Position numbers and translations under genes: made by a program | Assembly (NCBI RefSeq): GCF_024713945.1 | Contig: NC_134684.1 | Location: forward strand, 1,593,001 to 1,657,000 | Reading direction: 5' to 3' | Source: Dermatophagoides farinae | Lineage: Eukaryota; Arthropoda; Arachnida; Sarcoptiformes; Pyroglyphidae | Length of the DNA stretch: 64,000 bases | Shown: positions 35,569 to 59,146 of the stretch, piece by piece | How the letters are laid out: each line of letters begins with the position of its first letter | Numbering within the stretch: position 1 is the stretch's first letter | The notes under the pieces: model-generated | The model's input: the letters and a program-made list of their open reading frames with translations, nothing else | Databases searched by the model: none | Told to the model about the DNA's origin: nothing

Positions 35569-36957
35569 TTATGGAACCAATGATAAGAATGAAATTTTAT
35601 TTGTTTTTCTATTGATTGAATTCGTTGGTTCTGGACTGGTGTTATTCATTGTTGTTAGTTCCGTGGTTGTTGTCGTTGTTGGTCTTCTGGTTGTCGTTGT
35701 TGGTTCAGAAGTTGTGGTTGTTGGTCTTCTGGTTGTCGTTGTTGGTTCAGAAGTTGTGGTTGTTGGTCTTCTGGTTATCGTTGTTGGTTCAGGAGTTGTA
35801 GTTGTCGGTTTCTTGGTGGTCATTGTTGGTCTTCTGGTGGTCGTTGGCGCTTCCGTTGTTGTTGTGGTTGTCGGTTTCTTGGTGGTCGTTGTTGGTCTTC
35901 TGGTGGTCGCTGGCGCTTCCGTTGTTGTGGTTGTCGGTTTCTTGGTTGTGGTTGTAGGTTTCTTGGTTGTGGTTGTTGGTTTCTTGGTTGTCGTTGTTGG
36001 TCTTCTGGTTGTGGTTGTCGGTTTCTTGGTTGTCGTTGTCGGTTTCTTGGTTGTGGTTGTCGGTCTCCTGGTTGTAGTTGTCGGTTTCTTGGTGGTCGTT
36101 GTTGGTCTTCTGGTGGTCGTTGGCGCTTCCGTTGTTGTTGTGGTTGTCGGTTTCTTGGTTGTGGTTGTCGGTTTCTTGGTGGTCGTTGTTGGTCTTCTGG
36201 TGGTCGTTGGCGCTTCCGTTGTTGTTGTGGTTGTCGGTTTCTTGGTTGTGGTTGTAGGTTTCTTGGTTGTGGTTGTTGGTTTCTTGGTTGTCGTTGGCGC
36301 TTCCGTTGTTGTTGTCGTTGTCGGTTTCTTGGTTGTGGTTGTCGGTCTTCTGGTTGTGGTTGTCGGTCTTCTGGTTGTCGTTGGCGCTTCCGTTGTTGTT
36401 GTGGTTGTCGGTTTCTTGGTTGTGGTTGTCGGTTTCTTGGTGGTCGTTGTTGGTTTCTTGGTTGTCGTCGGCACTTCCGTTGTTGTTGTCGTTGTTGGTT
36501 TCTTGGTTGTCGTTGTCGTTGTTGGTTCTGTGGTTGTCGTTGTTGTCAAGGATTTGATAATATCAAAAGCTTCGTTCAATAATGGCTTGAACTTTTTGAA
36601 CATTGTCAACAATTCCAATTCAAAATGGGCGATTTTGAATGGATTATATGCATATTCTAACTCATGTTTGTAATACTTCATGGTTGCCAGTTTTTCTGTG
36701 ATTTCATCTTTCAAATCTGAATCGGGCAACTTTTCCAATACATCCTCGCCTCTTTCAATAAGCTCTTCAGCTTCGTTCAAAACATCATCTAGATTATCAC
36801 GTTTGAATCGTGGATTTGCATCAACTGTTTTCAGAATAAAAATTGTCCAAAAAAAATCAGTTGTGAAACTCTTGAATATCTTTAATGAAAACTACCTACC
36901 ATAAATACTGAACAAATTCAATGTTAGAATCAACAATAATGTTGCGGTTAATTTCAT
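35569..36957 (-). CDS. T1: secreted three-helix domain plus basic Thr/Pro mucin repeats
   Basis: Two exons, 36900-36957 and 35569-36824, joined in phase 1; 437 residues. Exon 1 encodes only the signal peptide (MKLTATLLLILTLNLFSIY). Exon 2 begins VDANPRFKR, a dibasic site suggesting pro-region removal, then one type A domain (EELIERGEDVLEKLPDSDLK ... HFELELLTMFKKFKPLLNEA), then about 270 residues of TTTTKKP, TTTTRRP and TTTTTTEAP units. The repeats carry net positive charge, unlike the EP-rich repeats of T3 and T6. The ending SPEPTNSINRKTNKISFL is shared with T3/T4, but a 2-nt loss relative to them replaces the shared DWFHKIRTRFNLF tail with SLVP. The TATA box and AATAAA conserved in T2-T4 are also altered here, so T1 may be losing function. 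Confidence 0.8.
35650..36545. repeat. Minisatellite coding the T1 mucin domain
   Basis: Imperfect 21-27 bp units built from ACAACC-type codons. Units end in KKP, RRP or EAP on the minus strand. The plus strand is also open and would read Val/Gly/Leu, which I take as a shadow. Confidence 0.85.
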
Positions 36958-37460
36958 GTTGTCGGCCTGTTTTGTGTGTTTATTTCAGAAATCCACGACG
37001 ATGTTAATGACAACAATTTAAAATTTGAAAGAAATTTTAATCACAATTTATTGCTAAGTAAACCAAGTGTAATCAATTTCTTTCGATCAATTGATTTTAT
37101 TCTTTTGAAATACATGTCGATTTCTATTAATCGATCGATAATCAAGGATGTATGGCTATTGATGATGAGAACTGTATCAATTGTTTATTGAGATTGTTCA
37201 ATCAGGAAATTGAGCTTAAATAAACGTAAAGCAAATTGAATCAATTTTACTCAGTAATTGAAATGAAGATCCTTGTCATCAACGATTTATAGATACTTGA
37301 AACATATATTACCTTTGAAATTGAGCAAAATTTCTCAAAATTAATCTAATTAATAAGGTCAGATTAATTAAATGGAATTTGCCATACACAAAGGATCAGT
37401 GTTGTCATCTGATAATAACAACAAATAAATCTTATCTGCGTTGGTATATTCAAGCATTCA
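36958..37460. repeat. Duplicated T-gene upstream region, copy 1
   Basis: About 500 bp that recurs upstream of T2 (40410-40930), T3 (43087-43640), T4 (46248-46800), T6 (54020-54300) and T7 (55266-55700). A landmark is the run TCGATAATCAAGGATGT near 37133-37150. The copies are easily aligned by eye but differ by substitutions and small gaps, which shows that promoter and gene were duplicated together. Confidence 0.8.
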
Positions 37461-38160
37461 TTGATCGCAAAATCTTATGAATTTTTTCAATGATTGAAAT
37501 GACATCAACATTCGTTTATATTGTTTTGAATCATCTTGCGACAAATTTTTAAGAGCAAAGATCAATCGTAAAACCGTTTATTGTTTAATCGATAGTGGAT
37601 CTAAAGTATTAATGTTTCCATCATAGATGCCTGTTGAAAAATTCTGGTCAAATCATTCTTTACACAGCCAATGGTTCACAATTGAAAGTGATGGGTGAAT
37701 CGATAGCAAAATTAAATATCAATAGTTGTGTTGTCGAACACACCGTATCGATTATGAACGTTATCGGATGCAGAAGTCTGTGCACTGGCGGTCGAACATC
37801 TTACTATGGATGATGATGCAGATAGTGGAAATGTAATCTGAACAATCGGATGTGGTTAATGAAGTAATCAATGCCATGATAAGATGAATTATATTGGTCA
37901 ACATAAATGTTTTGACATTATGTACTGTCGTTTTTACTGGCCTAAATGGCGGAATGATGTGAAACAGTGGAGTGCCTGTAATTTCAAAAAAGATAATTAT
38001 CCTCGACGGGCGAAACAATCTATGTCTGCAACTGATATTCTGAATCTTCTGAATCTTAATCCGTTTGAAAAAAATTGATGTAACGACACACTGTCAACAT
38101 CAAAATTGGGCAATCGTTATTTGTTTCAACCTTTTGACAGACCTAATATATTAAAGTTAA
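37440..38160 (+). mobile_element. Broken Ty3/gypsy-type fossil, copy 1
   Basis: Two parts are recognisable: an aspartic-protease-like stretch (DSG-type active site, about 37,560-37,760) and an integrase N-terminal zinc-finger-like stretch (RFYWPKW and NPFEK hallmarks, about 37,860-38,080). No long terminal repeats, reverse transcriptase or gag were seen. It is broken, with several breaks, and older than the T-gene duplications, because a second copy sits in the equivalent place between T2 and T3. Confidence 0.65.
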
Positions 38161-38231
38161 TCATCATTTTTAAATTTTTATAAAGAAAAGAAAAATAACA
38201 TTTAAAAGATTAAAAGATTAATTGATTGCCA

Positions 38232-38237
38232 TTTATT
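38232..38237 (-). terminator. Polyadenylation signal AATAAA, T2
   Basis: Lies 53 nt past the ancestral T2 stop. The same spacing holds for T3 and T4. Confidence 0.55.
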
Positions 38238-38384
38238 GAATGTAATGATTATGTCAAATTCTCATGAGCGAATCAAAAGAATAAAATGTTTAGAAAAGAT
38301 TGAATCTGGTTCGAATCTTATGGAACCAATCGGATAAGAATGTTTTTCTATTGATTGAATTCGTTGGTTCTGGACTGGTTTTAT

Positions 38385-40409
38385 TCATTGTTGTCGGTTT
38401 CGGACTTTGGCTTGTCGGTTTCGGACTTGGTGATGTCGGTTTCGGACTTGGTGATGTCGGTTTCGGACTTGGTGATGTCGGTTTCGGACTTGGTGATGTC
38501 GGTTTCGGACTTGGTGATGTCGGTTTCGGACTTGGTGATGTCGGTTTCGGACTTGGTGATGTCGGTTCGGTAGTTGGTGTTGTCGGTTCAGGAGTTGTTG
38601 TTGTCGGTTCAGGAGTTGTGGTCGTCGGTTCAGGAGTTGGGGTTGTCGGCTCCGGTGTTTTGGTAGTCGGTTCAGGAGTTGGGGTTGTCGGTTTCGGACT
38701 TGGTGATGTCGGTTCGGTAGTTGGTGTTGTCGGTTCAGGAGTTGGGGTTGTCGGTTCAGGAGTTGTTGTTGTCGGTTCAGGAGTTGTGGTCGTCGGTTCA
38801 GGAGTTGGGGTTGTCGGCTCCGGTGTTTTGGTAGTCGGTTCAGGAGTTGGGGTTGTCGGCTCCGGTGTTTTGGTTGTCGGTTCGGGTGTTTTGGTTGTCG
38901 GTTCAGGAGTTGGGGTTGTCGGTTTCGGAGTTGAGGTTGTCGGTTTCGGACTTGTTGTTGTCGGTTTCGGACTTGTGGTTGTCGGTTTCGGAGTTGAGGT
39001 TGTCGGTTTCGGAGTTGAGGTTGTCGGTTTCGGAGTTGAGGTTGTCGGTTTCGGAGTTGAGGTTGTCGGTTTCGGAGTTGAGGTTGTCGGTTTCGGAGTT
39101 GAGGTTGTCGGTTTCGGAGTTGAGGTTGTCGGTTCCGTGGTTGTCGTTGTGGTTGTTGGTTCCGAGGTTGTCGTTGTGGTTGTTGGTTCCGTGGTTGTCG
39201 TTGTCTGTTCTGTAGTTGTAGTTGTTGGTTCCGAGGTTGTCGTTGTTGGTTCGGTAGTTGTGGTTGTTGGTTCCGTGGTTGTCGTTGTGGTTGTTGGCTC
39301 CGTGGTTGCCGTTGTAGTTGTTGGTTCCGTGGTTGTCGTTGTCGGTTCTGTAGTTGTCGTCGTGGTTGTTGTCTGTTCTGTAGTTGTCGTTGTCGGTTCC
39401 GTGGTTGTCGTTGTCGGTTCTGTAGTTGTCGTTGTGGTTGGTTCCGTGGTTGTCGTTGTGGTTGTTGGCTCCGTGGTTGTGGTTGTCGGTTCTGTAGTTG
39501 TCGTCGTGGTTGTTGTCTGTTCTGTAGTTGTCGTTGTTGTCGTTCCGTGGTTGTTGGCTCCGTGGTTGTCGTCGGTTCCGTGGTTGTCGTTGTGGTGTCG
39601 GTTGGTTCTGTAGTTGTCGTTGTGTGGTTGGTTCCGTAGTTGTTGTGGTTGTTGGTTCCGTGGTTGTGGTTGTCGGTTCTGTAGTTGTCGTCGTGGTTGT
39701 TGTCTGTTCTGTAGTTGTCGTTGTCGGTTCCGTGGTTGTCGTTGTGGTAGTTGGTTCCGTAGTTGTTGTGGTTGTTGGTTCCGTGGTTGTCGTTGTCGGT
39801 TCCGTAGTTGTTGATGTTGTTGGCTCCGTGGTTGTGGTTGTCGGTTCTGTAGTTGTCGTCGTGGTTGTTGTCTGTTCTGTAGTTGTCGTTGTCGGTTGTT
39901 GTTGTTGTGGTTGGTTCCGTAGTTGTTGTGGTTGTTGGTTCCGTGGTTGTCGTTGTCGGTTCCGTAGTTGTTGATGTTGTTGGTTCCGTTGTTGTTGTTG
40001 TCAAGGATTTGATAATTTCATCAGCTTCGTACAATAATGTCTTGAACTTTTTGAACATTGTCAACAATTCCAATTCAAAATGGGCGATTTTGATTGGATT
40101 TTTTGCATTTTCTAATTCATGTTTGAAATGCTTCATGGTTGCCAGTTTTTCTGCGATTTCATTTTTCAAATCTGAATCGGGCAACTTTTCCAATACATCT
40201 TCGCCTTTTTCAATAAGCTCTTCAGCTTGTTTCAAAACATCATCCCGATTATCACGTTTGAATCGTGGATTTGCATCAACTGTTTTCAGAATAAATTGTC
40301 CAAAAAAACCAGTTGTGAAACTCTTGGATATCTTGAATGAAAACTACCTACCGAAAATACTTGCCCAACTCAATGTTAGAATAAACAATAATGTGGCGGT
40401 TAATTTCAT
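38385..40409 (-). CDS. T2: three-helix domain plus repeats with internal frame slips
   Basis: Exon 1 is 40352-40409 (signal peptide MKLTATLLFILTLSWASIF). Exon 2 runs from 40279; read without correction it stays open to 38385 and gives 650 residues. The type A domain is intact. The repeat then reads TTTTTEP, shifts near 39,893 to Asn/Asp/His-rich DNDNYRTDN, returns to TTTTTEP near 39,623, and shifts near 39,542 to Gln/Arg-rich RQPQLRN until the end. The family C-terminus (PTNSINRKT ... DWFHKIRTRFNLF, stop at 38,290) is present but in another frame, separated by one more net shift. This is either a gene that tolerates slips because all its frames are open, a decaying copy, or a consensus error in a long repeat. 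Confidence 0.6.
38395..40005. repeat. Minisatellite coding the T2 repeat region
   Basis: Changes character along its length: PTSPSPK units (38,400-38,560), TPEP/TPKP units (38,580-39,130), then TTTTTEP units (39,130-40,005), in minus-strand Thr/Pro frame. All frames are nearly stop-free. Confidence 0.85.
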
Positions 40410-40494
40410 GTTGTTGGCCTGTTTTGTGTGTTTATTTCAAAAATCCAAAAATATCCACAACGATTGTAATGACAACAGTTTAAAATTTGAAATA

Positions 40495-40501
40495 ATTTAT
40501 A
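40495..40501 (-). promoter_or_regulatory. TATA box of T2
   Basis: Minus-strand TATAAAT about 90 bp upstream of the T2 ATG; the same GCTATAAATT element is at the matching place in T3, T4 and T6. Confidence 0.5.
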
Positions 40502-41240: not shown

Positions 41241-41332
41241 AACCTAATATATTAAAGTTAATCGTCATTTTTAAATTTTTATCAAGAAAAGAAAAATAAC
41301 ATTTAAAAGATTAAAGGATTAATTGATTGCCA

Positions 41333-41338
41333 TTTATT
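41333..41338 (-). terminator. Polyadenylation signal AATAAA, T3
   Basis: 53 nt past the T3 stop. Confidence 0.55.
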
Positions 41339-41390: not shown

Positions 41391-43086
41391 TTAGAAAAGA
41401 TTGAATCTGGTTCGAATCTTATGGAACCAATCGGATAAGAATGAAATTTCACTTGTTTTTCTATTGATTGAATTCGTTGGTTCTGAACTGGTGATATTCA
41501 TTGTTGTTGGTTCTGAAGTGGTGCTATTCGATGTTGTCGGTTCCGGAGTGGTGCTATTCAATGTTGTCGGTTCCGGAGTGGTGCTATTCAATGTTGTCGG
41601 TTCCGGAGTGGTGCTATTCAATGTTGTCGGTTCCGGGGTGGTGCTATTCAATGTTGTCGGTTCCGGAGTGGTGCTATTCAATGTTGTCGGTTCCGGGGTG
41701 GTGCTATTCAATGTTGTCGGTTCCGGGGTGGTGCTATTCAATGTTGTCGGTTCCGGGGTGGTGCTATTCAATGTTGTCGGTTCCGTTGTAGTTGTCAAGG
41801 ATCTGATAATTTCATCAGCTTCGTTCAACAATGATTGGAACATTTTGAACATTGTCAACAATTCCGATTCAAGATGGGCGATTTTGATTGGATTTTTTGC
41901 ATTTTCTAACTCATGTTTATAATGCTTCATGGTTGCCAGTTTTTCTGCGATTTCATTTTTCAAATCTGAATCGGGCAACTTTTCCAATACATCCTCGGCT
42001 CTTTTAATAAGCTCTTCAGCTTGTTTCAAAACATCATCCCGATTAGGTTTCTTAGTCGTTGTTGGTTCCGGTGTTTTGGTAGTCGGTTCCGGAGTTGGGG
42101 TGGATGGTTCCGGTGTTTTGGTAGTCGGTTCCGGAGTTGGGGTGGATGGTTCAGGTGTTTTGGTAGTCGGCTCCGGAGTTGGGGTGGATGGTTCAGGTGT
42201 TTTGGTAGTCGGTTCCGGTGTTTTGGTAGTCGGTTCCGGAGTTGGGGTGGATGGTTCAGGTGTTTTGGTAGTCGGTTCCGGAGTTGGGGTGGATGGTTCA
42301 GGTGTTTTGGTAGTCGGTTCCGGAGTTGGGGTGGATGGTTCAGGTGTTTTGGTAGTCGGTTCCGGTGTTTTGGTAGTCGGTTCCGGTGTTTTGGTAGTCG
42401 GTTCGGGGGTTTTGGTAGTCGGTTCAGGAGTCGGTGTTGTTGGTTCAGGAGTTGGTGTTGTTGGTTCAGGAGTTGGTGTTGTTGGTTCAGGAGTTGGTGT
42501 TGTTGGTTCAGGAGTTGGTGTTGTTGGTTCCGGTGTTTTGGTAGTCGGTTCAGGAGTTGGTGTTGTTGGTTCCGGTGTTTTGGTAGTCGGTTCAGGAGTT
42601 GGTGTTGTTGGTTCCGGTGTTTTGGTAGTCGGTTCAGGAGTTGGGGTTGTCGGTTCCGTTGTTGTGGTTGTCAAGGATTTGATAATTTCATTAGCTTCGT
42701 TCAATAATGATTGGAACTTTTTGAACATTGTCAACAATTCCAATTCAAAATGGGCGATTTTGATTGGATTTTTTGCATTTTCTAACTCATGTTTGTAATG
42801 ATTCATGGTTGCCAGTTTTTTTGCGATTTCATCTTTCAAATCTGAATCGGGCAACTTTTCCAATACATCCTGGGCACTTTTAATAAGCTCTTCAGTTTGT
42901 TTCAAAACATCATCCCGATTATCACGTTTGAATCGTGGATTTGCATCAACTATTTTCAGAATAAAATGTCAAAAAAAATCAGTTGTAAAACTTGCACATG
43001 ATAAATAACTGGAATTGAAACTACCTACCGAAAATACTTGTCCAACTCAATGTTAGAATCAACAATAATGTTGCGGTTAATTTCAT
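41391..43086 (-). CDS. T3: two three-helix domains separated by TPEP mucin repeats
   Basis: Exons 43029-43086 and 41391-42949 give 538 residues. Order: signal peptide; VDANPRFKR pro-site; type A domain 1; about 200 residues of TTPTPEP/TTKTPEP units; KKPNRDDVLKQ; type A domain 2; about nine TTLNSTTPEP units, in which NST is an N-glycosylation sequon repeated once per unit; and the conserved tail PTNSINRKTSEISFLSDWFHKIRTRFNLF-type ending (the last 13 residues are DWFHKIRTRFNLF). The two repeats differ in unit (7 aa versus 10 aa) and glycan type, the second offering both N- and O-sites. The protein is secreted. The frame is clean throughout. Confidence 0.88.
41490..41795. repeat. 30-bp minisatellite in T3 (TTLNSTTPEP units)
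   Basis: About nine near-identical 30-bp units, so homogenised recently; each encodes one NST sequon. Confidence 0.9.
42045..42665. repeat. 21-bp minisatellite in T3 (TPTPEP/TKTPEP units)
   Basis: Alternating 21-bp units; higher-order 42-bp pairs are visible at 42,090-42,350. Confidence 0.88.
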
Positions 43087-44266: not shown

Positions 44267-46247
44267 TTAGAAAAGATTGAATCTGGTTCGAATTTTATGG
44301 AACCAATCGGATAAGAATGAAATTTCATTTGTTTTTCTAATGATTGAATTTGTCGGATCCTGAGTGGTGTTATTCAATGTTGTCGGCTCCGGAGTGGTGT
44401 TATTCATTGATGTTGGTTCAGAAGTGGTGTTATTCAATGTTGTCGGTTCCGGAGTGGTGCTATTCAATGTTGTCGGTTCCGGAGTGGTGCTATTTAATGT
44501 TGTCGGTTCCGGAGAGGTGCTATTCAATGTTGTTGGTTTCTCAGTTGTTGTTGTTGGTTTCTTAGTTGTCGTTGGCGCTCCCGTTGTAGTTGTCGTGGAT
44601 CTGATAATTTCATCAGCTTTGTTCAACAATGACTTGAAATTTTTGAACATTGTCAACAATTCCAATTCGTAATGGGCAATTTTGATCGGATTATGTGCAT
44701 GTTCTAACACATGTTTGTAATGCTTCATGTTTGCCAATTTTTCTCTGATTTCATCTTTCAAATCTGAATCCGACAACTTCTCTAATACATCCTCTGCTCT
44801 TTTAATAAGCTCTTCAGCTTGTTTCAAAACACCATCCCGATTAGGTTTCTTAGTTGTTGTTGGCGCTTCCGTTGTTGTTGTTGTTGTCGGCTTATTAGTT
44901 GGTGTTGTTGGTTCCGTAGTTGTCGTTGTCGGTTTGGGTGTTTTGGTAGTATTTTTCTTAGTTGGCGTTGTCGGTTCAGGAGTTGGTGTCGTTGGTGCTT
45001 CCGTTGTAGTTGTCGTGGATCTGATAATTTCATCAGCTTTGTTCAACAATGACTTGAAATTTTTGAACATTGTCAACAATTCCAATTCGTAATGGGCAAT
45101 TTTGATCGGATTATGTGCATGTTCTAACTCATGTTTGTAATGCTTCATGTTTGCCAATTTTTCTCTGATTTCATCTTTCAAATCTGAATCCGACAACTTT
45201 TCCAATACATCCTCGGCTCTTTTAATAAGCTCTTCAGCTTGTTTCAAAACATCATCCCGATTAGGTTTCTTAGTTGTTGTTGGTTCGGTAGTTGTGGTTG
45301 TTGGTTCCGTAGTTGTGGTTGTTGGTTCCGTAGTTGTGGTTGTTGGTTCCGTAGTTGTGGTTGTTGGTTCCGTAGTTGTGGTTGTTGGTTCCGTAGTTGT
45401 GGTTGTTGGTTCGGTAGTTGTGGTTGTTGGTTCCGTAGTTGTGGTTGTTGGTTCCGTAGTTGTCGTTGTTGGTTCGGTAGTTGTGGTTGTTGGTTCCGTA
45501 GTTGTGGTTGTTGGTTCCGTAGTTGTCGTTGTTGGTTCCGTAGTTGTGGTTGTTGGTTCGGTAGTTGTGGTTGTTGGTTCCGTAGTTGTCGTTGTTGGTT
45601 CCGTAGTTGTGGTTGTTGGTTCCGTAGTTGTGGTTGTTGGTTCCGTAGTTGTGGTTGTTGGTTCCGTAGTTGTGGTTGTTGGTTCGGTAGTTGTGGTTGT
45701 TGGTTCCGTAGTTGTGGTTGTTGGTTCCGTAGTTGTCGTTGTTGGTTCCGTAGTTGTGGTTGTTGGTTCGGTAGTTGTGGTTGGCGCTTTCGTTGTTGTT
45801 GTGGTTGTCGGTTTCTTGGTTGTGGTTGTCAGTTTCTTGGTTGTCGTTGTTGGTTTCTTGGTTGTGGTTGTCGGTTTCTTGGTTGTCGTTGTGGGTTTCT
45901 TGGTTGTGGTTGTCGGCTTCTTGGTTGTGGCTGTCGTGGTCGTGTTCGTGGTTGAGTTTGTTGGTTTCGTGGTTGGTTTTGCTGGTTTCTTAATTGTCGT
46001 TTCATTGTTCAAATTTAAATCGGGCAGCTTTTCCAGTACATCCTCGCCCCTTTCAATAAGCTCTTCAGCTTGTTTCAAAACACCATCTCGATTATCACGT
46101 GTATTTGCATCAACTGTTTTAAGAATAAAATTTAAAAAAACAATAGTGAAACTCGCACCTGATAATTGGCTGGAATGAAAACTACCTACCGAAAATACTT
46201 GCCCAACTCAATGTTAGAATAAACAATAATGTGGCGGTTAATTTCAT
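44267..46247 (-). CDS. T4: secreted mucin with one truncated and two full three-helix domains
   Basis: Exons 46190-46247 and 44267-46113 give 634 residues. After the signal peptide comes VDANTRDN, in which the PRFKR pro-site of the paralogues is lost. The first type A domain keeps only helix 1 (EELIERGEDVLEKLPDLNL) and passes straight into KKP repeats. About 24 nearly identical TTTTTEP units follow, then two complete type A domains (KHELEHAHNPIKIAHYELEL) split by a mixed TPEP/TKKN linker, then TTLNSTTPEP-type units and the conserved DWFHKIRTRFNLF ending. The two complete domains are almost identical at the DNA level, so they were copied or converted recently. Confidence 0.87.
44589..45275. 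repeat. Recent internal duplication in T4
   Basis: 44,589-44,860 and 45,006-45,275 differ at only a handful of positions. Each covers one type A domain plus the KKPNRD junction. This marks unequal exchange or gene conversion. Confidence 0.85.
45270..45985. repeat. 21-bp minisatellite in T4 (TTTTTEP, then TTTTKKP)
   Basis: About 24 TTTTTEP units alternating only in GG/GGT-type silent sites, then KKP units toward the N-terminus. Confidence 0.9.
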
Positions 46248-46800
46248 GTTGTTGGCCTGTTTTGTGTGTTTATTTCAAAAATCCAAAAATATCCACAACG
46301 ATTGTAATGACAACAGTTTAAAATTTGAAATAATTTATAGCTAGGAAGAACAAGTCTTATCATTTTCTTTCTATCGATCGATTATATTCTTTTGAAACAC
46401 TTGTCGTTTTCTATTAATTGATTGATAATCAAGGATGTCTGGCTATTGATGATGAGAAGTTTATCAATTGTTTATTAAGATTGTTCAATCAGGAAATTGT
46501 ACTTAAATAAATGTAAAGCAAATTGAATAAATTTTACTCAATAATTGAAATGAAAATCCTTGTCATCAACGATTTATTGATACTTGAAACATATATTACC
46601 TTTGAATTAAGCATAACCAAATTAGAGTGATTTCTCAAAATCAATCTAATTAATAAGGTTGTGGTGGCGTTGTATTGAATTCACTACAAGGTCATATTTA
46701 TTTAATAGAATTCGCGATTCACAAATGATCAATGTTGTCATCTGATAATATCAACAAATAAATCATATCCGCGTTGGTATTTTTTTCCTTGTTATATCAA
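46248..46800. repeat. Duplicated T upstream region (T4), ending inside T5
   Basis: Matches the other T upstream copies up to the T5 repeat. The flank motif TTCCTTGTTATAT...ATTCAATG runs to about 46,811 and supplies the last codons and stop of T5. Confidence 0.75.
46333..46339 (-). promoter_or_regulatory. TATA box of T4
   Basis: Minus-strand TATAAAT about 90 bp upstream of the T4 ATG. Confidence 0.5.
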
Positions 46801-48738
46801 CTATTCAATGCTCGGGCTGGTGTAACGCGTTGTGGGTTCTGGGGTGGTGTAACGTGTTGTCGGTTCTCGGGTGGTGTAACGTGTTGTGGGTTCTGGGGTG
46901 GTGTAGCTTATTGTTGTCGGTTCCGGGGTGGTGTAACGCGTTGTGGGTTCTGGGGTGGTGTAACGTGTTGTGGGTTCTGGGGTGGTGTAGCGTATTGTTG
47001 TCGGTTCTCGGGTGGTGTAACGCGTTGTCGGTTCTCGGGTGGTGTAACGCGTTGTGTGTTCTGGGGTGGTGTAACGTGTTGTCGGTTCTCGGGTGGTGTA
47101 ACGCGTTGTGGGTTCTGGGGTGGTGTAACGTGTTGTCGGTTCTCGGGTGGTGTAACGTGTTGTCGGTTCTCGGGTGGTGTAACGTGTTGTCGGTTCTCGG
47201 GTGGTGTAACGCGTTGTGGGTTCTGGGGTGGTGTAACGTGTTGTCGGTTCTCGGGTGGTGTAACGTGTTGTCGGTTCTCGGGTGGTGTAACGTGTTGTTG
47301 TCGGTTCTCGGGTGGTGTAGCGTATTGTTGTCGGTTCTCGGGTGGTGTAACGCGTTGTGGGTTCTGGGGTGGTGTAACGCGTTGTCGGTTCTCGGGTGGT
47401 GTAACGTGTTGTTGTCGGTTCTCGGGTGGTGTAACGCGTTGTCGGTTCTCGGGTGGTGTAACGCGTTGTGGGTTCTGGGGTGGTGTAACGCGTTGTGGGT
47501 TCTGGGGTGGTGTAACGTGTTGTTGTCGGTTCTCGGGTGGTGTAGCGTATTGTTGTCGGTTCTGGGGTGGTGTAACGCGTTGTGGGTTCTGGGGTGGTGT
47601 AGCTTATTGTTGTCGGTTCCGGGGTGGTGTAGCTTATTGTTGTCGGTTCCGGGGTGGTGTAACGCGTTGTTGTCGGTTCTCGGGTGGTGTAGCGTATTGT
47701 TGTCGGTTCTCGGGTGGTGTAACGTGTTGTCGGTTCTCGGGTGGTGTAACGTGTTGTCGGTTCTCGGGTGGTGTAACGTGTTGTCGGTTCTCGGGTGGTG
47801 TAACGTGTTGTCGGTTCTCGGGTGGTGTAACGTGTTGTCGGTTCTCGGGTGGTGTAACGTGTTGTCGGTTCTCGGGTGGTGTAACGCGTTGTGGGTTCTG
47901 GGGTGGTGTAACGTGTTGTGGGTTCTGGGGTGGTGTAACGTGTTGTCGGTTCTCGGGTGGTGTAACGTGTTGTCGGTTCTCGGGTGGTGTAACGTGTTGT
48001 CGGTTCTGGGGTGGTGTAACGTGTTGTCGGTTCTCGGGTGGTGTAACGTGTTGTCGGTTCTCGGGTGGTGTAACGTGTTGTCGGTTCTCGGGTGGTGTAA
48101 CGTGTTGTCGGTTCTCGGGTGGTGTAACGTGTTGTTGTCGGTTCTCGGGTGGTGTAGCGTATTGTTGTCGGTTCTCGGGTGGTGTAACGCGTTGTGGGTT
48201 CTGGGGTGTTGTAGCTTATTGTTGTCGGTTCCGGGGTGGTGTAACGTGTTGTCGTTGTTAATTCCGTAGTTGTCGTTGTCGGGTTTGGGGTTGTGTTTTC
48301 TCTAGTCAAATCTTCGGCTTCTTCTAACCATGGTTTGAATTCGACAATAATACGTTCGATTTCCCATTCAATATGGACAACACGATGTTCATTATGGTCG
48401 TGTCTTTTTAATTGTTTTTCTAAATAAATCAATTTTTGTACATAATGTTCGATTTTGTGTCGCAACTGTCCATGTGGTAGTTTTTCCATAACATGTTCAC
48501 CACGTTGAATATAATGATTGGTTTTATCGATCAGATGATCATCAAAATCATTTTCGACATAAATACTTTTACAGTCGACAACATCTTTGTAAGAGGAGAG
48601 AAAAAATAAAAAAATTAGTCTTTTTCTCTATTTTAAACAACATTTTCAGTTACTTTGATAAAATACGATCGAAACAATAAAAAATGATAATGCAAACAAC
48701 GGCCAAGCAATAAACGTATTGAATTTCATCTTCATCAT
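46801..48738 (-). CDS. T5: secreted type B three-helix domain plus long TTRYTTREP repeats
   Basis: Exons 48654-48738 and 46801-48584 give 622 residues from the first ATG (619 if MKFNTFIAWPLF at 48,729 is used). The signal peptide differs from the T1-T4 type. The single helical domain is type B (HYIQRGEHVMEKLPHGQL ... HRVVHIEWEIERIIVEFKPW, LEEAEDLTRENTTPNP). It has one cysteine (VVDCKS). Roughly fifty 9-residue units of TTRYTTREP/TTRYTTPEP follow, rich in Tyr and Arg as well as Thr. There is no conserved C-terminus: the last residues SPSIE and the stop come from the duplicated flank of T4. Confidence 0.85.
46812..48270. repeat. 27-bp minisatellite of T5
   Basis: About fifty 27- or 30-bp units with internal CG-containing codons (ACGCGTT/ACGTGTT). 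Units vary between REP and PEP and between TRY, TIRY and TTRY, and blocks of identical units point to slippage or unequal exchange. Confidence 0.92.
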
Positions 48739-49092: not shown

Positions 49093-50614
49093 TCATTTAT
49101 TTGATTTTCGTTTCTTACTATTGCTTACACCAGAAGCTGATAATGATAATTGTCGATTAGAAATACTTCGTTTTGATTTTTTGTTCAATGTTTTTCGTTT
49201 CTTTGATGATGATTTTATCACTGATGATGATGATGATGATGATGGTGATCGTCGACGATTTGGATTCGCCTGAATATTCTGTATACGAATTGAACCTGAA
49301 CGGCTTTTTCCCATCACCTTATTACTACTATAAATTGATTCTATTTGAATTGAATTTTGTTCTCTATAACAATAATAATAAAAAGCGAATAGACAAATTG
49401 CTGTGATAATTGCAGCCAACATGATGTTTGCTATAGTTTTTTTTCAAAATTCACCATGGTAAAGCGCCATAAAGGTAGTAAATTAGATTAAATCGGAATG
49501 AAATTATTCAAATGAAAGAGAAAAAAAACTCACATTTCGAAACGATTGACGACGGTACCACTGTTGTTGAATGTGTTGTTGTAATAGATGACATAGTATT
49601 AGTTTGTGTTTCGGTTACAACTGACGATGATGATGTTTGACTGTTTGATTCTGTTGTCACAATCGTTGTAATTATTGTTGGTGATCCAATACAATTGAAA
49701 AATGATTGATATGAATGATTTTGAAATGGATATGATTCTTCTGGACTATCATAAACATCTTCATTAAATGAATAGATTGATTCCTTTGTAAATAGATAGA
49801 AACGACCATTAGCAACAAAACCTTTCATTACAGACCATTCGACAGGTTTACTACAACTTTTCCATATTGAAGTTATTGGTATACGAATTTGTTTAGTATC
49901 CTTATCATCAAAACAAATTGAACGAAATTCACCTAGTCTAATACGAGTTTTATCCTGTATTGCAGAATCCGATGTATTGTATGAAGCTATCTGTAATGAT
50001 GGATTATCATCACTTTTATTTCTTATCGTATAAAAATGTCCTGGTCTTGTACTGGATATGGTCACTTCTTTAAAACGATTAGCCAAACGCCAGCCAACAA
50101 TTATTCGTGAATGAGTAAGATCATAGCATAGACCAAATGATGGATATAAAAGTTTCGATGTAAGAAAACAAAACCAATCAGTATAACTATCAATTAATGT
50201 TATAGAATTGTAAACATAATGTTGAATATCTTGCCATTCTTTACTATTATAAAGTTTTGGATAAATATTCAATAATGGTGATGATTTTTTATGTAAATAT
50301 AATGTATTTATAGCCACATTCATTGAATCACGTTTGATTGCATAAACATTATAATCTTTGGTCACCAATAACATATGAATACGTGTCATTCCAATGGTTA
50401 AAATATTTAAATCATCACTGCCATCATAGCCAGCCAATGTTTTCATACAAATCTCCTGTTTTCATTTAAAAATCAAAAAAAAATGATAAATTTTTTAAGC
50501 ATATGAAAAAAAACAACTTACATCCGTATCCTGTGCCAATACGTTGATCAAAAGCTGATCGATGACCAATGTTATTATTAGCATAATCATTTTGATTTCA
50601 GAATATGAAATCAT
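49093..50614 (-). CDS. S1: single-pass receptor-like protein, family S
   Basis: Exons 50522-50614, 49534-50455 and 49093-49430 give 450 residues. A signal peptide exon of exactly 31 codons, then an ectodomain with the family blocks ILTIGMTRIHMLLVTKDYNVY, YTDWFCFLTSK, LCYD, RSICFDD, SCSKPVEWSVMKGFVANGRF, YLF...YSFNED and FFNCIGSP. A Ser/Thr stalk of about 40 residues follows, then a membrane span (AAIITAICLFAFYYYC) and a short Arg/Ser/Lys tail. Repeated KGF..xGRFYLF..VY.F.E resembles hemopexin/beta-propeller blades, but no known family is secure. S1 is the only member with a mucin-like stalk. Confidence 0.78.
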
Positions 50615-50844: not shown

Positions 50845-52431
50845 TTAATTTTTGACCATACTTTTGACTTTTGACATTTGACATTTTATTGTCGATTTGC
50901 TGACACTGCTATTATTCTTGTAACTTGGTTCAGATAAAAATGGTGCCGTTGAATTGGTGCTTAATTTTGAAAGCATTTTTTGTTTCGGAATTATCGATGA
51001 TTTTGAATTAATCATTGATTTTGTTGAATCTTTACAAACAAAAATGGATCTTGATCGATTACTTGAACTTTTTGGTTGTTTAGATTTAATAGTAGTAATA
51101 GAAGCAACGTTATTTTTATCAATTCCTTTTATGCTGCTACTTTTAATTTTTTTCTTATTTGTTGTTGATACATCTGATGCAAGAAATTCTTCAGCAATAG
51201 ATCCACTTTCAGCTATTTTTGATTGATAAAAACGACTTCGTGTTCGTATTTGATTTGATTCATCAATTTTTCGTTTAACAAATATTATGCAACATAAAAC
51301 TAATATTAAAATGATTAGTAGAAATACAACCACTGCTATGATCCAATACAGTACTATTTTCAGGTAAATAAAATAGAATTAGAATCAATCAATTAATTAA
51401 TTTGATGAACATCAGTCATATTATATTATCAATACTTACAATCATGTGACATTGGATCAGGAAAAATTGTACCCTGGCAAAGAAAAAATGATTCAAATGT
51501 TTGAATTTTCACTATATACGATTGTGGTAATCTTTTATCAGATTTAGATTTAAGTAAAATTTCATCAAATGAATAGACATACGAATCTTTGCCAAATAGA
51601 TAGAATTTACCATAAACATTAAGTCCTTTGAGTATGAGCCAATTGACCGGTGTTTTACATGTTTTTTCATCTATATGAATTTTTTGTTTACTATCATCAT
51701 CATAACAAAGTGAATGAAAACCATTGATTAACACATGATCAGTAGTTTTTTCTAATGATTTATCATCATTACATTTATAAGTTGCCAACTGTAACACATA
51801 TTTATTATTAGATTTTTCATAAAAACGACGAATTATGTGAAAATGACATGGTTCAAGTGTCGATATGAATATATCATCATAAAACATGGTTCTAAATTTC
51901 CAACCGAATATTACACGTTTAGTTTTTATACCATAATAAATTGGAACGATACTAGTTTGTAGACCTGTCTGTATATTTAAACAAAGCCAATCATCTTTCG
52001 AATCAATAATTGTAAATATATTCGTTGCAACTGATTTGATGTAAAAGAATCGTAAATCATTGAATAATACGGGATATTTGTATGCAATATTTATTGGTGA
52101 ATTTTTCAGATATAATTGATTTTTGTTCAATAATGTTGAATTCATCGGTAATTGATAGACAAAATGATCTTTTGTAATCATTATAAAATCGATACGAGTA
52201 ACACCAATGGACCACATATTCAATTGGCTATGATTAAAACGTAAACCTTCACATATAGGCTAATTTATTTGGAAAAAAAACAATGAATGAATTTTGAATT
52301 GAATGAATCATGTATGTGTGTGTGTGTGAAATACTTACATCTTTTGATTGGACAAACCAATCATTTCTATTTAGAATCAATGATAAAATTGAAAAAATTT
52401 CAATAATCATTAAATATTTCATAGTGAACAT
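50845..52431 (-). CDS. S2: single-pass receptor-like protein, family S
   Basis: Exons 52339-52431, 51440-52259 and 50845-51353 give 473 residues with the same exon plan as S1: a 31-codon leader, then the ectodomain, then an exon holding the membrane span and tail. Ectodomain landmarks: MWSIGVTRIDFIMITKDHFVY, DDWLCLN, SLCYDDD, KTCKTPVNWLILKGLNVYGK, FYLFGKDS and FFLCQGT. S2 and S3 have one additional Cys pair (PCHF, YKC). The span is unusually strong (IIAVVVFLLIILILVLCCII). The tail is about 130 residues, Ser/Lys-rich and basic, with no kinase or TIR domain. Role unknown; a cell-surface receptor or adhesion protein is inferred. Confidence 0.78.
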
Positions 52432-52687
52432 CGGTTTCAATAATATTGAACTAAAAAAAAAACAAGAAAAAAAATGTTCATTAAACTTTATTTATTGATT
52501 GATTCTACTTATATGATTTCAATTGGAATTTTTTTTTTAAATTAATAATTAAAAATTGGAATTGTATATTTAATTTAATATTTTTTCATCCATTGACAAT
52601 GTGTTCGAATGTTTTTCATTTTTTTTTTCGTCAATAATTTTGGTCAAAAATAACCGAATGCTGATGATATTGTTGGTAACATTAATT

Positions 52688-54019
52688 TCACAAGTATCCA
52701 TGGATAGTTGAGGCTGTTGATTCTGTAGTTGTTGTTGTTGGGTTTGGAGTTGTATTCTCTCTAGTCAAATCTTCGGCTTCTTCTAACCATGGCTTGAATT
52801 CAACAATAACATATTCGATTTCCCATTTAATACGTTCAACACGATGTTGATTATGATGGTGTCTTTGTAATTGTTCTACCAAATAAATCAATTCTCGTAC
52901 ATAATGTTCGATTTCGTCTCGTAAACGTTCATGAGGAAGCAGTTTTATAACATGTTCACCACGTTGGATATATCGATTTGCTTCATCGATCAGTTTCTTA
53001 GTTGGACTTTGGGTAGTCGGTTCCGTAGTTGTGGTTGTCGGTTCCGTGGTTGTGGTTGTTGGTTCTGTAGTTGTGGTTGTTGGTTCCGTGGTTGTGGTTG
53101 TTGGTTCTGTAGTTGTCGTTGTGGTTGTCGGTTCCTTGGTTGTTGGTTCCGTGGTTGTGGTTGTTGGCTCGGGAGTTGTGGTTGTAGTTGTCGGTTCCGT
53201 GGTTGTGGTTGTTGGTTCTGTGGTTGTGGTTGTCGGTTCCGTGGTTGTGGTTGTTGGTTCTGTGGTTGTGGTTGTCGATTCCGTAGTTGTGGTTGTTGGT
53301 TCCGTAGTTGTTGTGGTTGTTGGTTCCGTAGTTGTTGTGGTTGTTGGTTCCGTAGTTGTTGTGGTTGTTGGTTCGGTGGTTGTGGTTGTTGGTTCTGTGG
53401 TTGTGGTTGTCGGTTCCGTAGTTGTGGTTGTTGGTTCCGAAGTTGTTGTGGTTGTTGGTTCCGTGGTTGTTGTGGTTGTTGGTTCCGTGGTTGTGGTTGT
53501 CGGTTCCGTAGTTGTGGTTGTTGGTTCCGTAGTTGTTGTGGTTGTTGGTTCCGTGGTTGTGGTTGTCGGTTCTGTGGTTGTGGTTGTTGGTTCCGTGGTT
53601 GTGGTTGACAAATATCTGATAATTTCATCAGCTAAGTTCAAAAATGACTTAAACTTTTTGGACATTGTAGACAATTCCAATTCTAAATCGGCGATTTCGA
53701 CTGGATCATTTGCATGTTCTAACTTATTTTTGTAATCCTTCATTATTGCCAGTTTTTCTGTGATTTCAACTTTCAAATCTGAATCGGGCAATTTTTTCAA
53801 TACATCCTCGGCTTTTATAATAAGCTCTTCAGCTTCTTTCAAAACATCATCTCGATTTTCACGTTTGAATCGTGGATTTGCATCAACTGTTTTCAGAATA
53901 AATTTTTCAAAAAAAAAATCAGTCGTAAAACTCTTGAATATCTTGAATGAAAACTACCTACCGTAAATACTGAGCCAATTCAATGTTAGAATCAACAGTA
54001 ATGTCGCGGTTAATTTCAT
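52688..54019 (-). CDS. T6: type A plus type B helical domains joined by TTTTTEP mucin
   Basis: Exons 53962-54019 and 52688-53886 give 418 residues. Signal peptide MKLTATLLLILTLNWLSIY, VDANPRFKR, a divergent type A domain (EELIIKAEDVLKKLPDSDLK), about 190 residues of TTTTTEP units, then a type B domain (NRYIQRGEHVIKLLPHERLR ... EFKPWLEEAEDLTRENTTPN) and a short end ESTASTIHGYL. The order A-mucin-B is shared with T7. The last codons come from DNA homologous to the tail of S3 (CCATGGATAC), read in another frame, so T6 took its stop from a receptor-gene relic. Confidence 0.86.
53010..53600. repeat. 21/24-bp minisatellite of T6
   Basis: TTTTTEP and TTTTTTEP units; all frames are open, but here the Thr/Pro frame is kept from end to end. 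Confidence 0.88.
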
Positions 54020-54425: not shown

Positions 54426-55265
54426 TTATTTTGTTGTCGGTTTGATAGTTGTCGTTGTCGGATTAGGGGTTGTATTTTCTTTGGTCAAATCTTCGGCTTC
54501 CTCTAACCATGGCTTGAATTCGTTAATATTACGTTCAATTTCCCGTGCAAGATATATAACGTGTTCTTGATTATGATGGTGTGTTACTAATTGTTTTTCT
54601 AAATAACTCAATCTTCGTACATAATGCTCGATTTCGTGTCGCAAATGTCCATGAGGTAGTTTTCCTAAAACATGTTCACCACGTTTGATATAATGATTCA
54701 TTTCAATGATCAATTGCTTTAATGGATTTAAGGTAGTCGGTTTTGTTGTTGTGGTTGTTAGTTTCGTAGTTTTTGTTGCTGGTTTAGGAGTTGATGTTGT
54801 CGGTTCCGGTGTTTGGGTTGTCGGTTCAGGAGTTGTGGTTGTCGGTTCCGTTATTGTGATAATTTCATTAGCTTCGTCCAATAATGATTGGAAATGTTCG
54901 AACATTGTCAACAATTCCAATTCAAAATGGGTGATTTTGATTGGATTTTTTGCATTTTCTAATTCATGTTTGTATTGCTTCATGTTTGTCAGCTTTTCTG
55001 CGATTTCATTTTTCAAATCTGAATCGGGCAGCTTTTCCAATACATCCTTGGCTCTTTTAATAAGCTCTTCAGTTTGTTTCAAAACATCATCCCGATTATC
55101 ACGTTTGAATCGTGGATTTGAATCAACTATTTGCAAAATAAATTGTCCAAAAAAAAATCAGTCGTGAAACTCGCACATGATGAATGACTTGAATGAAAAC
55201 TACCTACCGAAAATACTTGCCCAACACAATGTTAGAATCAACAATAATGTTGCGGTGAATTTCAT
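54426..55265 (-). CDS. T7: compact type A plus type B helical protein
   Basis: Exons 55208-55265 and 54426-55126 give 252 residues, the shortest member. Signal peptide MKFTATLLLILTLCWASIF, VDSNPRFKR, type A domain (TEELIKRAKDVLEKLPDSDL ... HFELELLTMFEHFQSLLDEA), only about 40 residues of TPEP/TTKP linker, then type B (MNHYIKRGEHVLGKLPHGHL, EHYVRRLSYLEKQL, EFKPWLEEAEDLTKENTTPN) and a short Thr tail. Because the linker is short, T7 shows the two domains side by side and their shared pattern (GE-hVL-KLP...L+.EI........YL..L) is obvious. It is close to what the A-B ancestor would look like before repeat growth. Confidence 0.87.
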
Positions 55266-55779: not shown

Positions 55780-56098
55780 AATTAGCTTGAATTTGATAAT
55801 AATAGTACGTTCGATTTCTCATTCAATATTGTTCATTATTGATTGGATTTCCGTAATTGTTATTTCTAAATGAATCAACATTCGCTAACATGATGTGCGA
55901 TTTTTTTTTTGGGTGAAATTTTCAATGATCATTGAATATTTTATAGTAAACATCGGGTTTTCGATTATACTAGAATGAAAAAAACAAGAAAAAAAATGTT
56001 CAATAAACTTGTTTTTATTGATTGAATCTACTTATTTGATTTCAATTGGAATTTTTGTTCTTCAAATTAATAATTAAAAATTTAGAATTATATATATT
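55780..56098 (-). pseudogene. Relics of a T type B domain and an S2-like leader exon
   Basis: 55,780-55,900 aligns with the type B helical domain DNA of T5 (GCTTGAATTTGATAATAATA near its start) but has lost the frame. 55,915-55,965 aligns with exon 1 of S2, and 55,970-56,200 aligns with 52,440-52,670 between S2 and T6. It is the scar of a duplication that joined a T gene to an S gene. It is not expressed as a recognisable protein. Confidence 0.65.
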
Positions 56099-57707
56099 TC
56101 AATTCAATATTTTTCCATTCATTGACATTGTGTTCGAATGTTTTACATTTATTTTTGGTATTTTTTTTGTCAATAATTTTGGCCAAAAACTACCAAATGT
56201 TGATGATCTTGTTGTGGGCATCAATTTTGGCAAAGAACCACCAAATGTTGATGATCTTGTTGTTGGCACTAATTTTGGCAAAAGACCACCAAATGTTGAT
56301 GATCTTGTTGTTGGCACCAATTTTGGTAAAGAACCATCAAATGTTGATGGTCTTGTTGGTTGCATTAATTTTACACGTATCCATGGATAGAATTTTCGTT
56401 TTTTTCGAGAAAATTCCGAATCTAATGGATAAGTAGCAGCAGTATTACTAGTTGTTGTTGATGTATTAATACTAGTAGTAGTCGTATCTGTATGTTTATT
56501 CAGTATTGATGATTCATTTTTACTTTGTTCAACATCCGATGTATCAATAGATTTGCTTCGTTTATGATGTTTCTTTGGATCCAATGCTGAACGTATTGTT
56601 TTTGAATGATGACGACGAAAAATTGAATAATTTTCAATTCGAATATATAAAAGACAGCATAATATCAAGAACAATGTAAGCAAAATAGCCAAAATTATCA
56701 TTAAAATTTTACTATGTTTTCCTAATATTTCAATGTAAATACCAAAAAAAAAATGTAAGGATTTTTTGTTTTTGTTTTTGTTTTTTTTTGTCGATCCTTT
56801 ACTCACCTGTCAAACTATCCGGTATCGATCCAGGACATACGAAAAATGATGAATATTTTCGTTGAATAACTGATACAGTGATGTTTTTTGTATAAAAATC
56901 TTCATTGAAAATATGTACATTATTCATATCGAATAAATAAAAACGACCATCAGCCACAAAACCTTTCATTATTGGCCATTTTACTGGATAATTTTTACAG
57001 TTTTCATCATATTCATTTTGGATACTGATTTCTTTTTCTTGTCCATCAGTATAACAAATTGTTCGAAATTGATTAACTATATTAATGGAATCAGTTATAA
57101 ATTTTTGACATTTATAAGTGGCAATTTCCAATCCATTTGTTATCGATGAATAACTTAATGCATAGTAACTACAAGATTTATTCGTTGATATAAGTACTTC
57201 ACGTTTATTACCAGTGAATATAAAACCAGGTTTAACATCATGATTATTTAGATCATAAGAAATGCCCTTTTCGACTGTTATACGAAACCATGTGGTCAAA
57301 CAAAGCCAATCGGTTTCATCATCAATCACGATGAATGCATTGAATATATTTTTTCGTATTTTTTCAAATTGTTCCGATTCAAAAAGAGCCGGATATTTTG
57401 TGGACATTGGTGTCGGTTCAGCATTTAAATATAATTGATCAATACTTGAATCAAGTGAATCTATGGATAATTCATATACAAAATAATTTTCCGTTATAAG
57501 TAATAGATTTTTTCTGGTTAAACCAACGGCCAAAATATTGGATTTATTATCATGTTGTTGGCCCTTTAAACTATGAGCTAATGAATGGCATAGTTGATTT
57601 GATTCAGTTTTATTGTTAATCATATATATTGAATCAATAGATAGAATTGTCCAAAAATACCACCACCACCACCATAAGCAACGGAAATTTAAATTTTGGA
57701 TCATCAT
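56099..57707 (-). CDS. S3: single-pass receptor-like protein with repeated cytoplasmic tail
   Basis: Exons 56807-57707 and 56099-56721 give 507 residues. The leader intron of S1/S2 is absent. The N-terminus has an odd run of five Trp (CLWWWWWYFW) in the leader. Ectodomain: ILAVGLTRKNLLLITENYFVY, TDWLCLTTWFR, TICYTDG, NCKNYPVKWPIMKGFVADGR, FYLFDMNNVHIFNEDF, FFVCPGS. Then a membrane span (MIILAILLTLFLILCCLLYI) and a ~180-residue basic tail ending in four copies of a 16-residue unit, TTRSSTFGGSLPKLVP-like. That unit is absent from the tails of S1, S2 and S4, and its Ser/Thr/Arg content suggests phosphorylation or adaptor docking (inference). Confidence 0.8.
56195..56385. repeat. 48-bp tandem repeat in the S3 tail
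   Basis: Four copies, three of them nearly identical, each coding 16 residues (KLVPTTRSSTFGGSLP-like). Confidence 0.85.
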
Positions 57708-57844
57708 TTTCAAAATTTTAACACACTAAAACACACAATAATAACACATACACATTTATACAACAAAAACTTGGACTTTTAAAAGAACACCAAATAATTG
57801 ATTAAATCAAACGACAGAATGAATTTGGAATTTTTAATTTTAAT

Positions 57845-59146
57845 TCAATAAAAATTTGAATCATGTACCATGTCATTTGATGAAGATTGTTGTGCCAATG
57901 ACGTGAACGTTGATTGTTGTTTCATCACAGTAGGTTTAGTCGATGATGATGATGGTGATGATAAAGCGGATTTTTTTCGTTCATTTACCAAACTTATTTT
58001 TGGTGCAACAGTAGAAGATTTGGACATAATTTCAGTCAATACTTTTGGTCTATGTTGAACAGTTGATGATTGAAAAAAATTACTACGTATTGATTTATCA
58101 TAAATCGATGATTGGATTTTCGATAATTTTTTTTCCTTTGATGGTGGTGGTGTTTTACTGAAATTCAAAAATAGCAATAGAATAAGTGACATTAACAATA
58201 TTAATATTAATACGAAAATAAGCCAAACATATCTTGATGGTATCATTTTAGAAATTGAATTCAAATGATCTGGACACCAGAAAAAAGTTCCATATGATTT
58301 CTTTGATAATGGATATGGTTTATAATTATCAAAAATGGCAATCTCATTGAAAATATAAACAGAATCATTTGAGAATAGATAGAATTTAGAATCGATAATA
58401 AAACCTTTTAATATTGGTAAATCGATTGGCTGCATATTTTTCGAAAAACAATCATCATTCATAACAATGATTGTTGTATGGATTGAAAATTTTTCAAACC
58501 AACATAGATTTTTATAAGGAAATAAATGTTTGATTCCAGAATTCTTTGTTACAGATTCACCATTCAATTGTAATTTAGTCATCTGTAGATAATTTGTATC
58601 CGGTTTTTTACGAATTGAATATAAAGATTTTGGTTCTTTTGTTGATATTAATATCTCATTCGATGAACCAGTATAATCCCAGCCAGAATGTATATTGCCA
58701 GTATTAAAATTGTAATTAATACCTGATCCTGAACCATCATCATTACTTTTATCATAAATGAAACAAAACCATGAACCATCATTATCGACAATAATAACTG
58801 CATCATGATATGAATTGATATTTTTTTGAAATAAATCATTATTCCATAATTTTGGATATTTATTCGACATAGCTATCGGTTTGGCTTGTATATAAAGCAT
58901 ATCAATAGTACTATTCATTTGTTGTAAATTAACCTCATATACATAATAATCAGTGGTCAATAGTATAAGTTTTGTTTGTGTTATACCAACAGTCATTATA
59001 TGAAATTGTTGATTTGTATTATTCACTGTTTTACAAATATCTGATGATGATTCATAACTATCCACTAAATTGATTGCCATCAATGTTTGTAGTGTCCACG
59101 TTAACCAACAAATCATTATGAGAAGAAAAAATTGTTCAAATTTCAT
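57845..59146 (-). CDS. S4: intronless single-pass receptor-like protein
   Basis: A 433-residue single exon; ATG at 59146. Signal peptide (MKFEQFFLLIMICWLTWTLQ), ectodomain with FHIMTVGITQTKLILLTTDY, GSWFCFIYDK, NLCWFEK, DDCFSKNMQPIDLPILKGF, SKFYLFSNDSVYIFNE, FFWCPDHLN, a membrane span (YVWLIFVLILILLMSLILLL) and a ~120-residue Ser/Lys tail. The five core cysteines are kept; the additional pair of S2/S3 is not. The loss of both introns could mean a retrocopy or stepwise intron loss. Confidence 0.8.
   Translation of the reverse strand: MKFEQFFLLIMICWLTWTLQTLMAINLVDSYESSSDICKTVNNTNQQFHIMTVGITQTKLILLTTDYYVYEVNLQQMNSTIDMLYIQAKPIAMSNKYPKLWNNDLFQKNINSYHDAVIIVDNDGSWFCFIYDKSNDDGSGSGINYNFNTGNIHSGWDYTGSSNEILISTKEPKSLYSIRKKPDTNYLQMTKLQLNGESVTKNSGIKHLFPYKNLCWFEKFSIHTTIIVMNDDCFSKNMQPIDLPILKGFIIDSKFYLFSNDSVYIFNEIAIFDNYKPYPLSKKSYGTFFWCPDHLNSISKMIPSRYVWLIFVLILILLMSLILLLFLNFSKTPPPSKEKKLSKIQSSIYDKSIRSNFFQSSTVQHRPKVLTEIMSKSSTVAPKISLVNERKKSALSSPSSSSTKPTVMKQQSTFTSLAQQSSSNDMVHDSNFY

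Follow-up and report, generated by a model that had tools for sequence, protein, structure and literature searches.

Secreted mucin-like T genes and propeller-type S genes at one Dermatophagoides farinae locus: probably a chance interleaving of two families

The 4BetaP proteins of Dermatophagoides pteronyssinus form a large mite family with at least 119 male-biased genes reported, laid out as an N-terminal hydrophobic helix, an outer four-bladed propeller, a membrane helix and a disordered tail of variable length (PMC12105342). Here we describe eleven open reading frame (ORF) sets of two families, called T and S, in its sister species D. farinae, within a 64,000-nucleotide stretch of contig NC_134684.1 (positions 1,593,001 to 1,657,000; hereafter the window, to which unlabelled coordinates refer). 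The S genes are likened to 4BetaP by architecture alone, that is, by a hydrophobic N-terminus, a propeller (modelled for S3), a membrane helix and a variable tail, and single-sequence searches place at least 16 S loci in D. farinae against the at least 119 male-biased genes of that family (PMC12105342). Their predicted four-bladed fold also recalls the hemopexin-fold propellers of matrix metalloproteinase C-terminal domains, vitronectin and plant albumins, although the S proteins are membrane-anchored, show no protease domain and give no Pfam hemopexin match. The T proteins resemble secreted non-gel-forming mucin-like proteins in their signal segment, long Thr/Pro-rich repeats and copy-variable repeat number, but differ in a three-helix-bundle head without credible family match and in the absence of Cys-rich assembly domains. 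With the Sarcoptes peritrophin SsPTP1 they share putative secretion, threonine richness and predicted O-glycosylation, but they lack a chitin-binding domain and are almost free of cysteine (PMC3181238). We favor, with a probability of roughly 70%, the reading that T and S are two unrelated families interleaved by chance rather than a conserved ligand/receptor unit.

Layout and history of the block

The preliminary description gave the order T1-T2-T3-T4-T5-S1-S2-T6-T7-S3-S4 on one strand, and all eleven ORF sets are indeed present in that order on the minus strand between 35569 and 59149. Gene models were drawn by eye from ORFs, and their exons, signals and membrane helices are putative. The features, all on the minus strand, are as follows.

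35569-36957: T1; main exon from 36824, preceded by a 75-nt intron and a putative signal exon (36957-36900); A head at 36547-36801, then a Thr/Pro/Lys tract; shortened C-terminal motif
36930-37450: upstream region of the T type, T1 copy, overlapping the signal exon by the exon's first 28 nt
38290-40409: T2; putative signal exon 40409-40352; A head 40002-40256; frame-shifted as assembled
41391-43086: T3; A heads at 42672-42926 and 41796-42050 with Pro/Thr repeats in between; putative signal exon 43086-43029
44267-46247: T4; putative signal exon 46247-46190; heads A1 (truncated, 45956-46099), A2 (45017-45268) and A3 (44597-44848); 420-bp internal repeat
46801-48738: T5; own putative signal exon 48738-48654, 69-nt phase-1 intron; B head 48295-48555; tract a 27-bp repeat in about 52 copies
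49093-50590: S1; putative signal exon at 50590-50522, followed by one ORF for the ectodomain (49508-50461) and another for the membrane helix and tail (49093-49443; by eye)
50845-52431: S2; putative signal exon at 52431-52339, followed by one ORF for the ectodomain (51429-52259) and another for the membrane helix and tail (50845-51378; by eye)
52394-52707: S-derived junction copy directly downstream of T6; S3-type 3' end, spacer, start of S2 signal exon
52688-54019: T6; A head at 53609-53863 and B head at 52754-53008, behind a putative signal exon (54019-53962); its 3' end passes into sequence resembling the S3 tail somewhere from 52726 to 52707 (self-comparison)
54426-55265: T7; A head at 54855-55103 and B head at 54474-54731, with a short tract and a putative signal exon (55265-55208)
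55785-55903: T B-head relic upstream of T7, between S3 and T7, abutting the S-derived junction
55916-56227: matching S-derived copy at the 3' end of S3; its last part is a broken S2-like signal exon start
56099-57725: S3; one ORF for the ectodomain (56799-57725), modelled as a four-bladed propeller, and another for the membrane helix and tail (56099-56809), carrying 48-bp coding repeats
57845-59149: S4; a single ORF of 434 aa that runs from a hydrophobic N-terminus through a propeller-family ectodomain to a membrane helix and tail

Self-matches of at least 60 nt lying not mostly inside tracts were considered for breakpoints, and the sharing between S and T among those printed comes down to one S-derived segment found on both sides of the T7-T6 block. 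The 3' end of S3, its spacer and the first S2-like signal-exon codons (56227-55916) match 52688-52394 at 81% over 314 bp. The S3 cytoplasmic tail contains about four 48-bp coding repeats (56161-56372), part of which match the T6 3' end, and these prolong the S-type match on the T6 side to 52707. Directly beyond 55916 lies the B-head relic (55903-55785), which is 68% identical to T6 (E 3.8e-6). Because S-derived copies stand at both ends, the T7-T6 block appears bracketed by two copies of a former S-to-S intergenic stretch, and one recombination or duplication event would explain the bracketing. Most simply, the T7-T6 block would have entered or arisen inside the S array via one recombination that left S-derived sequence on either side. 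The breakpoints common to both families, from which joint duplication had been deduced, are real, but they trace to this single segment and do not establish co-duplication.

Comparison of sequence divergence points the same way. In self-comparison, T-to-T duplication involves the upstream region plus the gene as a unit: a 521-bp upstream piece, which includes 28 nt of the signal exon, has six genome copies, all in the cluster (T1-T4, T6, T7), and the same six genes have near-identical signal exons. T5 has no head other than B, lacks the upstream region and starts with a distinct signal exon, with intron phase unchanged. The T genes would have multiplied by tandem duplication of this unit together with repeat expansion. 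A heads remain 61-98% identical (28 pairs, with the truncated first T4 head excluded) versus 26-35% for the S1-S4 ectodomains (six pairs), so recent T duplications brought no S copies along. Since recent T copies lack equally recent S partners, a T+S unit duplicated again and again in recent times does not fit, and with the window S genes not forming one clade, the proposal that the two families duplicated together is not borne out. B heads are 64-68% identical (three pairs), and the older split between A and B (18-31%, 24 pairs) is not datable against S divergence.

S genes in the genome at large

The S proteins conform to their earlier portrayal as single-pass-type proteins with one shared ectodomain and divergent tails. 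By eye, all four carry an N-terminal hydrophobic (signal or membrane) helix and a membrane helix followed by a Ser/Lys/Arg-rich low-complexity tail, the tails being dissimilar, which supports their description as single-pass-type membrane proteins with one common ectodomain. The S3 ectodomain model, built with the four window sequences, is a four-bladed propeller; the first 20 rows of its structure list, a second look at Foldseek's top 1000 chains, are of the hemopexin fold, and the propeller fold of S1, S2 and S4 follows from alignment to S3. Sequence searches gave less. Pfam hemopexin (PF00045) matched none of the four ectodomains at E 10, and of its nine genome matches on contigs C2, C4 and C6 (contig labels are our own), eight over cut-off, none fell at S loci. 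PDB sequence searches with the S proteins gave no matches, and three Pfam matches to whole S4, all below cut-off, lay over the membrane helix and tail.

Across the assembly (62.4 Mb, 22 contigs), S loci were found, besides the four in the window, on C3 (seven, at 6.38-6.41 Mb), C7 (two, at 2.72 Mb), C8 (one, at 0.93 Mb) and C2 (two), the second C2 locus resting on E 0.0068 and an ORF with S layout by eye. Weak S matches also occur on C4 and C6. The C3 cluster (C3:6382727-6406813) holds seven S-type propeller genes, several of them closely similar. S3 is most similar to genes at C8:0.93 Mb and on C3 (43%) rather than to its window neighbours. In a 16-row tree, none of 200 bootstrap replicates set the window S genes apart on one side of a branch, holding them together was rejected by the approximately unbiased (AU) test (p 0.023), and S4 paired with a C7 gene (95/88, long branch). 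The detailed S tree is unsure, with 8 of its 13 inner branches open and several terminal branches long. By these comparisons the S genes appear dispersed and old, and the architecture of the four window genes makes it most likely that they belong to the dispersed 4BetaP family. With 16 loci in the genome and a published family of the same architecture (PMC12105342), the view that S is new or special to this block does not hold.

The surroundings of the other S loci bear on whether the two families belong together. At 12 S loci elsewhere, a filter-free T-head profile found nothing better than E 2.2 and a scan for Thr-rich ORFs found none; the scan covered 33 overlapping loci and 132,101 bases (about 43.6 kb non-overlapping), including C2:3573602 and excluding C3:6392001-6395322. 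The seven-gene C3 cluster likewise contains no T heads, that same interval excepted. These results weigh on the proposal that T and S co-evolve, T mucins of the male or female tract being bound by sperm S propellers and linkage keeping matched alleles together. Interleaving within one 23.6-kb block is what such a pair would predict, as is the male bias of the S-type family in the sister species (PMC12105342). Rapid divergence of the A heads could be read similarly: among eight heads, pairwise ratios of nonsynonymous to synonymous change (dN/dS) range from 0.15 to 2.50, with 11 of 28 pairs above 1 and a pooled ratio (pN/pS) of 0.79, no significance test being attached, while the three B-head pairs give 0.38, 0.51 and 0.78. 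Fast change of the A-head protein appears to fit relaxed constraint and positive selection alike, and a pN/pS near 1 is as expected of the former. Recent T copies brought no S copies, S loci elsewhere have no T head within the sequence read, and the junction looks like a single event. We regard co-evolution as very doubtful.

T heads, tracts and candidate relatives

Each of the seven T genes can be drawn, by eye, as a signal-like first exon, a GT-AG phase-1 intron of 69-81 nt and a large main exon. A heads occur in T1, T2, T3 (two), T4 (three, the first truncated), T6 and T7, and B heads in T5, T6 and T7. The earlier characterization of T as secreted and modular agrees with these putative signal exons and varied head combinations, and that of a fast-changing mucin-like family agrees with signal exons, tract composition and head divergence. 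The count of seven genes stands insofar as each has a putative signal exon, head and tract, with the qualification that T2 is frame-shifted as assembled. The motif Arg-Phe-Lys-Arg directly follows the signal segment, before the A head, in T1, T2, T3, T6 and T7, where we take it to be a possible furin-type processing site; it is missing from T4 and from internal head copies.

Heads are about 85 aa long, and the A-head model is a three-helix bundle with a mean predicted local distance difference test score (pLDDT) of 96.2. An 84-aa A-head query gave at least 11 matches at E 0.01 or better in the 62.4 Mb, all inside the T cluster and so beyond what chance would give, and a B-head query at least 12, of which 11 were in the cluster and one was on C9 at E 0.33; both counts are lower bounds because the searches score best candidates only. 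Among the matches listed, the T array is, by sequence search, known only from a single locus in the D. farinae genome. Candidate families for the head were tried and set aside. Pfam DinB_2 was the sole family passing its cut-off (whole T4, 32.4 versus 24.8 bits) but is not credited, because the score sums over repeated heads and single heads reach at best E 0.01, in 2 of 11. TIMP on T4 (22.7 versus 23.1 bits) was sub-threshold, as were other Pfam matches; New_glue on T2, T6 and T7 stayed below its cut-off (31 bits) and reflects Thr-rich composition. A T profile against PDB gave 29 matches up to E 10, the best being alpha-catenin at E 0.0072, judged to be helical chance. A search of the mite mucin literature found no published description of T, most subscription papers lying outside its reach, and the word "mucin" was not found in the main text of PMC12105342.

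The fold of the group 5/21 mite allergens is a three-helix bundle, which raises the idea of a distant kinship between the T heads and the Blo t 5 family, such a bundle having been put to new use on a mucin. The T-head model does resemble these allergens in length and three-helix layout, and a Blo-t-5 profile finds three loci over cut-off in the genome. None of the three is in the T cluster, however, no T locus appears even at E 10, and profile-profile comparison gives a probability of 0.2%, against a thin three-sequence allergen profile. Generic three-helix bundles resemble the model too and fill the fold-search list. On this profile evidence kinship with the group 5 and 21 allergens (PF11642) was rejected, and we hold it to be very unlikely. 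The group 5 and group 21 allergen genes themselves lie at C4:4170433-4171937 on opposite strands, with about 0.8 kb between matched stretches; an ORF on C4 agrees with Der f 21 (PDB 9had) at 112 of 112 residues compared, as expected of D. farinae, and a third, diverged Blo-t-5 locus lies at C1:4915481.

A stretch counts as mucin-like when at least 100 aa contain at least 40% Ser+Thr and at least 5% Pro, and we applied this in 100-residue windows, reading T2 in its head frame only. Five of the seven T proteins have such windows (T1, 367 of 440 residues; T3, 402 of 525; T4, 458 of 646; T5, 516 of 608; T6, 296 of 421), and T2, in that frame, and T7 have none. Counted from the VDAN, VDSN or VVDC motif, mature T proteins contain no cysteine in six cases and one in T5. 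T tracts are open in further sense frames and in antisense as well, so an open frame alone is weak evidence; antisense ORFs of up to 506 aa cross them at 35528-36673, 38294-39613 and 46749-48269 (plus strand) and are expected from repeat composition. More telling are repeat mismatches at codon positions 1, 2 and 3, counted for T1, T3, T4, T5 and T6. They number 49, 63 and 116 in T1, 127, 114 and 177 in T3, 198, 150 and 250 in T4, and 96, 81 and 136 in T6. Third-position variation backs the Thr frame in these four, but not in T5 (109, 116 and 111).

These counts bear on whether the tracts are mostly decaying minisatellites, with few T genes functional and the rest by-products of repeat expansion. 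The T2 Thr/Pro tract changes frame three times as assembled (0-1-0-2, 38290-40343), its head frame giving a long Arg/Gln- and Asn/Asp-rich reading, and T2 may be either a pseudogene or the site of assembly indels. The shortened C-terminal motif of T1, the truncated first head of T4, the B-head relic and the T5 tract without third-position excess also look like decay. By contrast, T1 and T3-T7 retain signal exon, intron, head and open main exon, and the third-position excess recurs in four genes. General decay is in our estimation unlikely.

Beyond the block, a ZIP zinc transporter exon (59409-60017, minus strand) adjoins S4 and marks the block edge. At 28416-34711 on the plus strand runs a series of long ORFs, four of which were tested without a Pfam match at E 1e-4; the last ORF of the series looks EGF-like with a membrane helix, judged by eye.

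Functional readings

The S proteins would be type-I-like, their outer part a four-bladed propeller of the hemopexin fold and their inner part a variable, disordered tail, and, because 4BetaP is male-biased in the sister species, they most likely serve in binding or adhesion, either on sperm or in the male germ line. The T proteins would be secreted, with three-helix-bundle heads on Thr/Pro-rich tails that are probably O-glycosylated and form a hydrated coat. Given their neighbours, reproductive-tract secretion is our tentative working guess for T, placed ahead of a gut lining, and other exocrine, cuticular or egg uses take the remaining share.

A gut or peritrophic-lining role, with T adjoining S by chance, draws on putative secretion and on Thr/Pro-rich, Cys-poor tails, and the scabies mite gut peritrophin has threonine-rich stretches (PMC3181238). 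That peritrophin, however, has four chitin-binding domains of six cysteines each (PMC3181238). The T proteins gave no Pfam match to the chitin-binding domain (CBM14) and lack its six-cysteine pattern, the only mature cysteine being that of T5; nor did Pfam match the Cys-rich assembly domains of gel-forming mucins. We therefore consider gut lining rather unlikely, though less so than general decay of the tracts. Neither this role nor the ligand/receptor idea, both raised when the locus was first described, finds support, the published S-type family being male-biased (PMC12105342).

Several points weigh against two unrelated families brought together by chance. Male expression of the window S genes and any role for T are inferred, and the S propeller model is built on four sequences only. 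The neighbourhood is still compatible with shared regulation. Flanks read at S loci were mostly about 1.5 kb, and a T gene further off would escape. The A/B split is as deep as S divergence, and an early joint duplication of T and S is possible. Even so, we judge a T-S ligand/receptor pair highly improbable, and equally slight the chance that T genes encode reproductive-tract mucins whose fast-diverging heads are read by linked 4BetaP-type sperm propellers. If that last were true, the block would be a gamete-recognition or sperm-coat locus with ligand beside receptor.

Chance interleaving corrects an attractive ligand/receptor story, one recombination junction explaining the arrangement, and by architecture S belongs to a family already described as male-biased. 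The remaining interest lies in T, a one-locus secreted family from a mite that is a major allergen producer, whose helical head is unclassified and whose mucin tails change fast. If expressed, T proteins would be variable glycoproteins of interest for mite extracts and for reproductive tissue.

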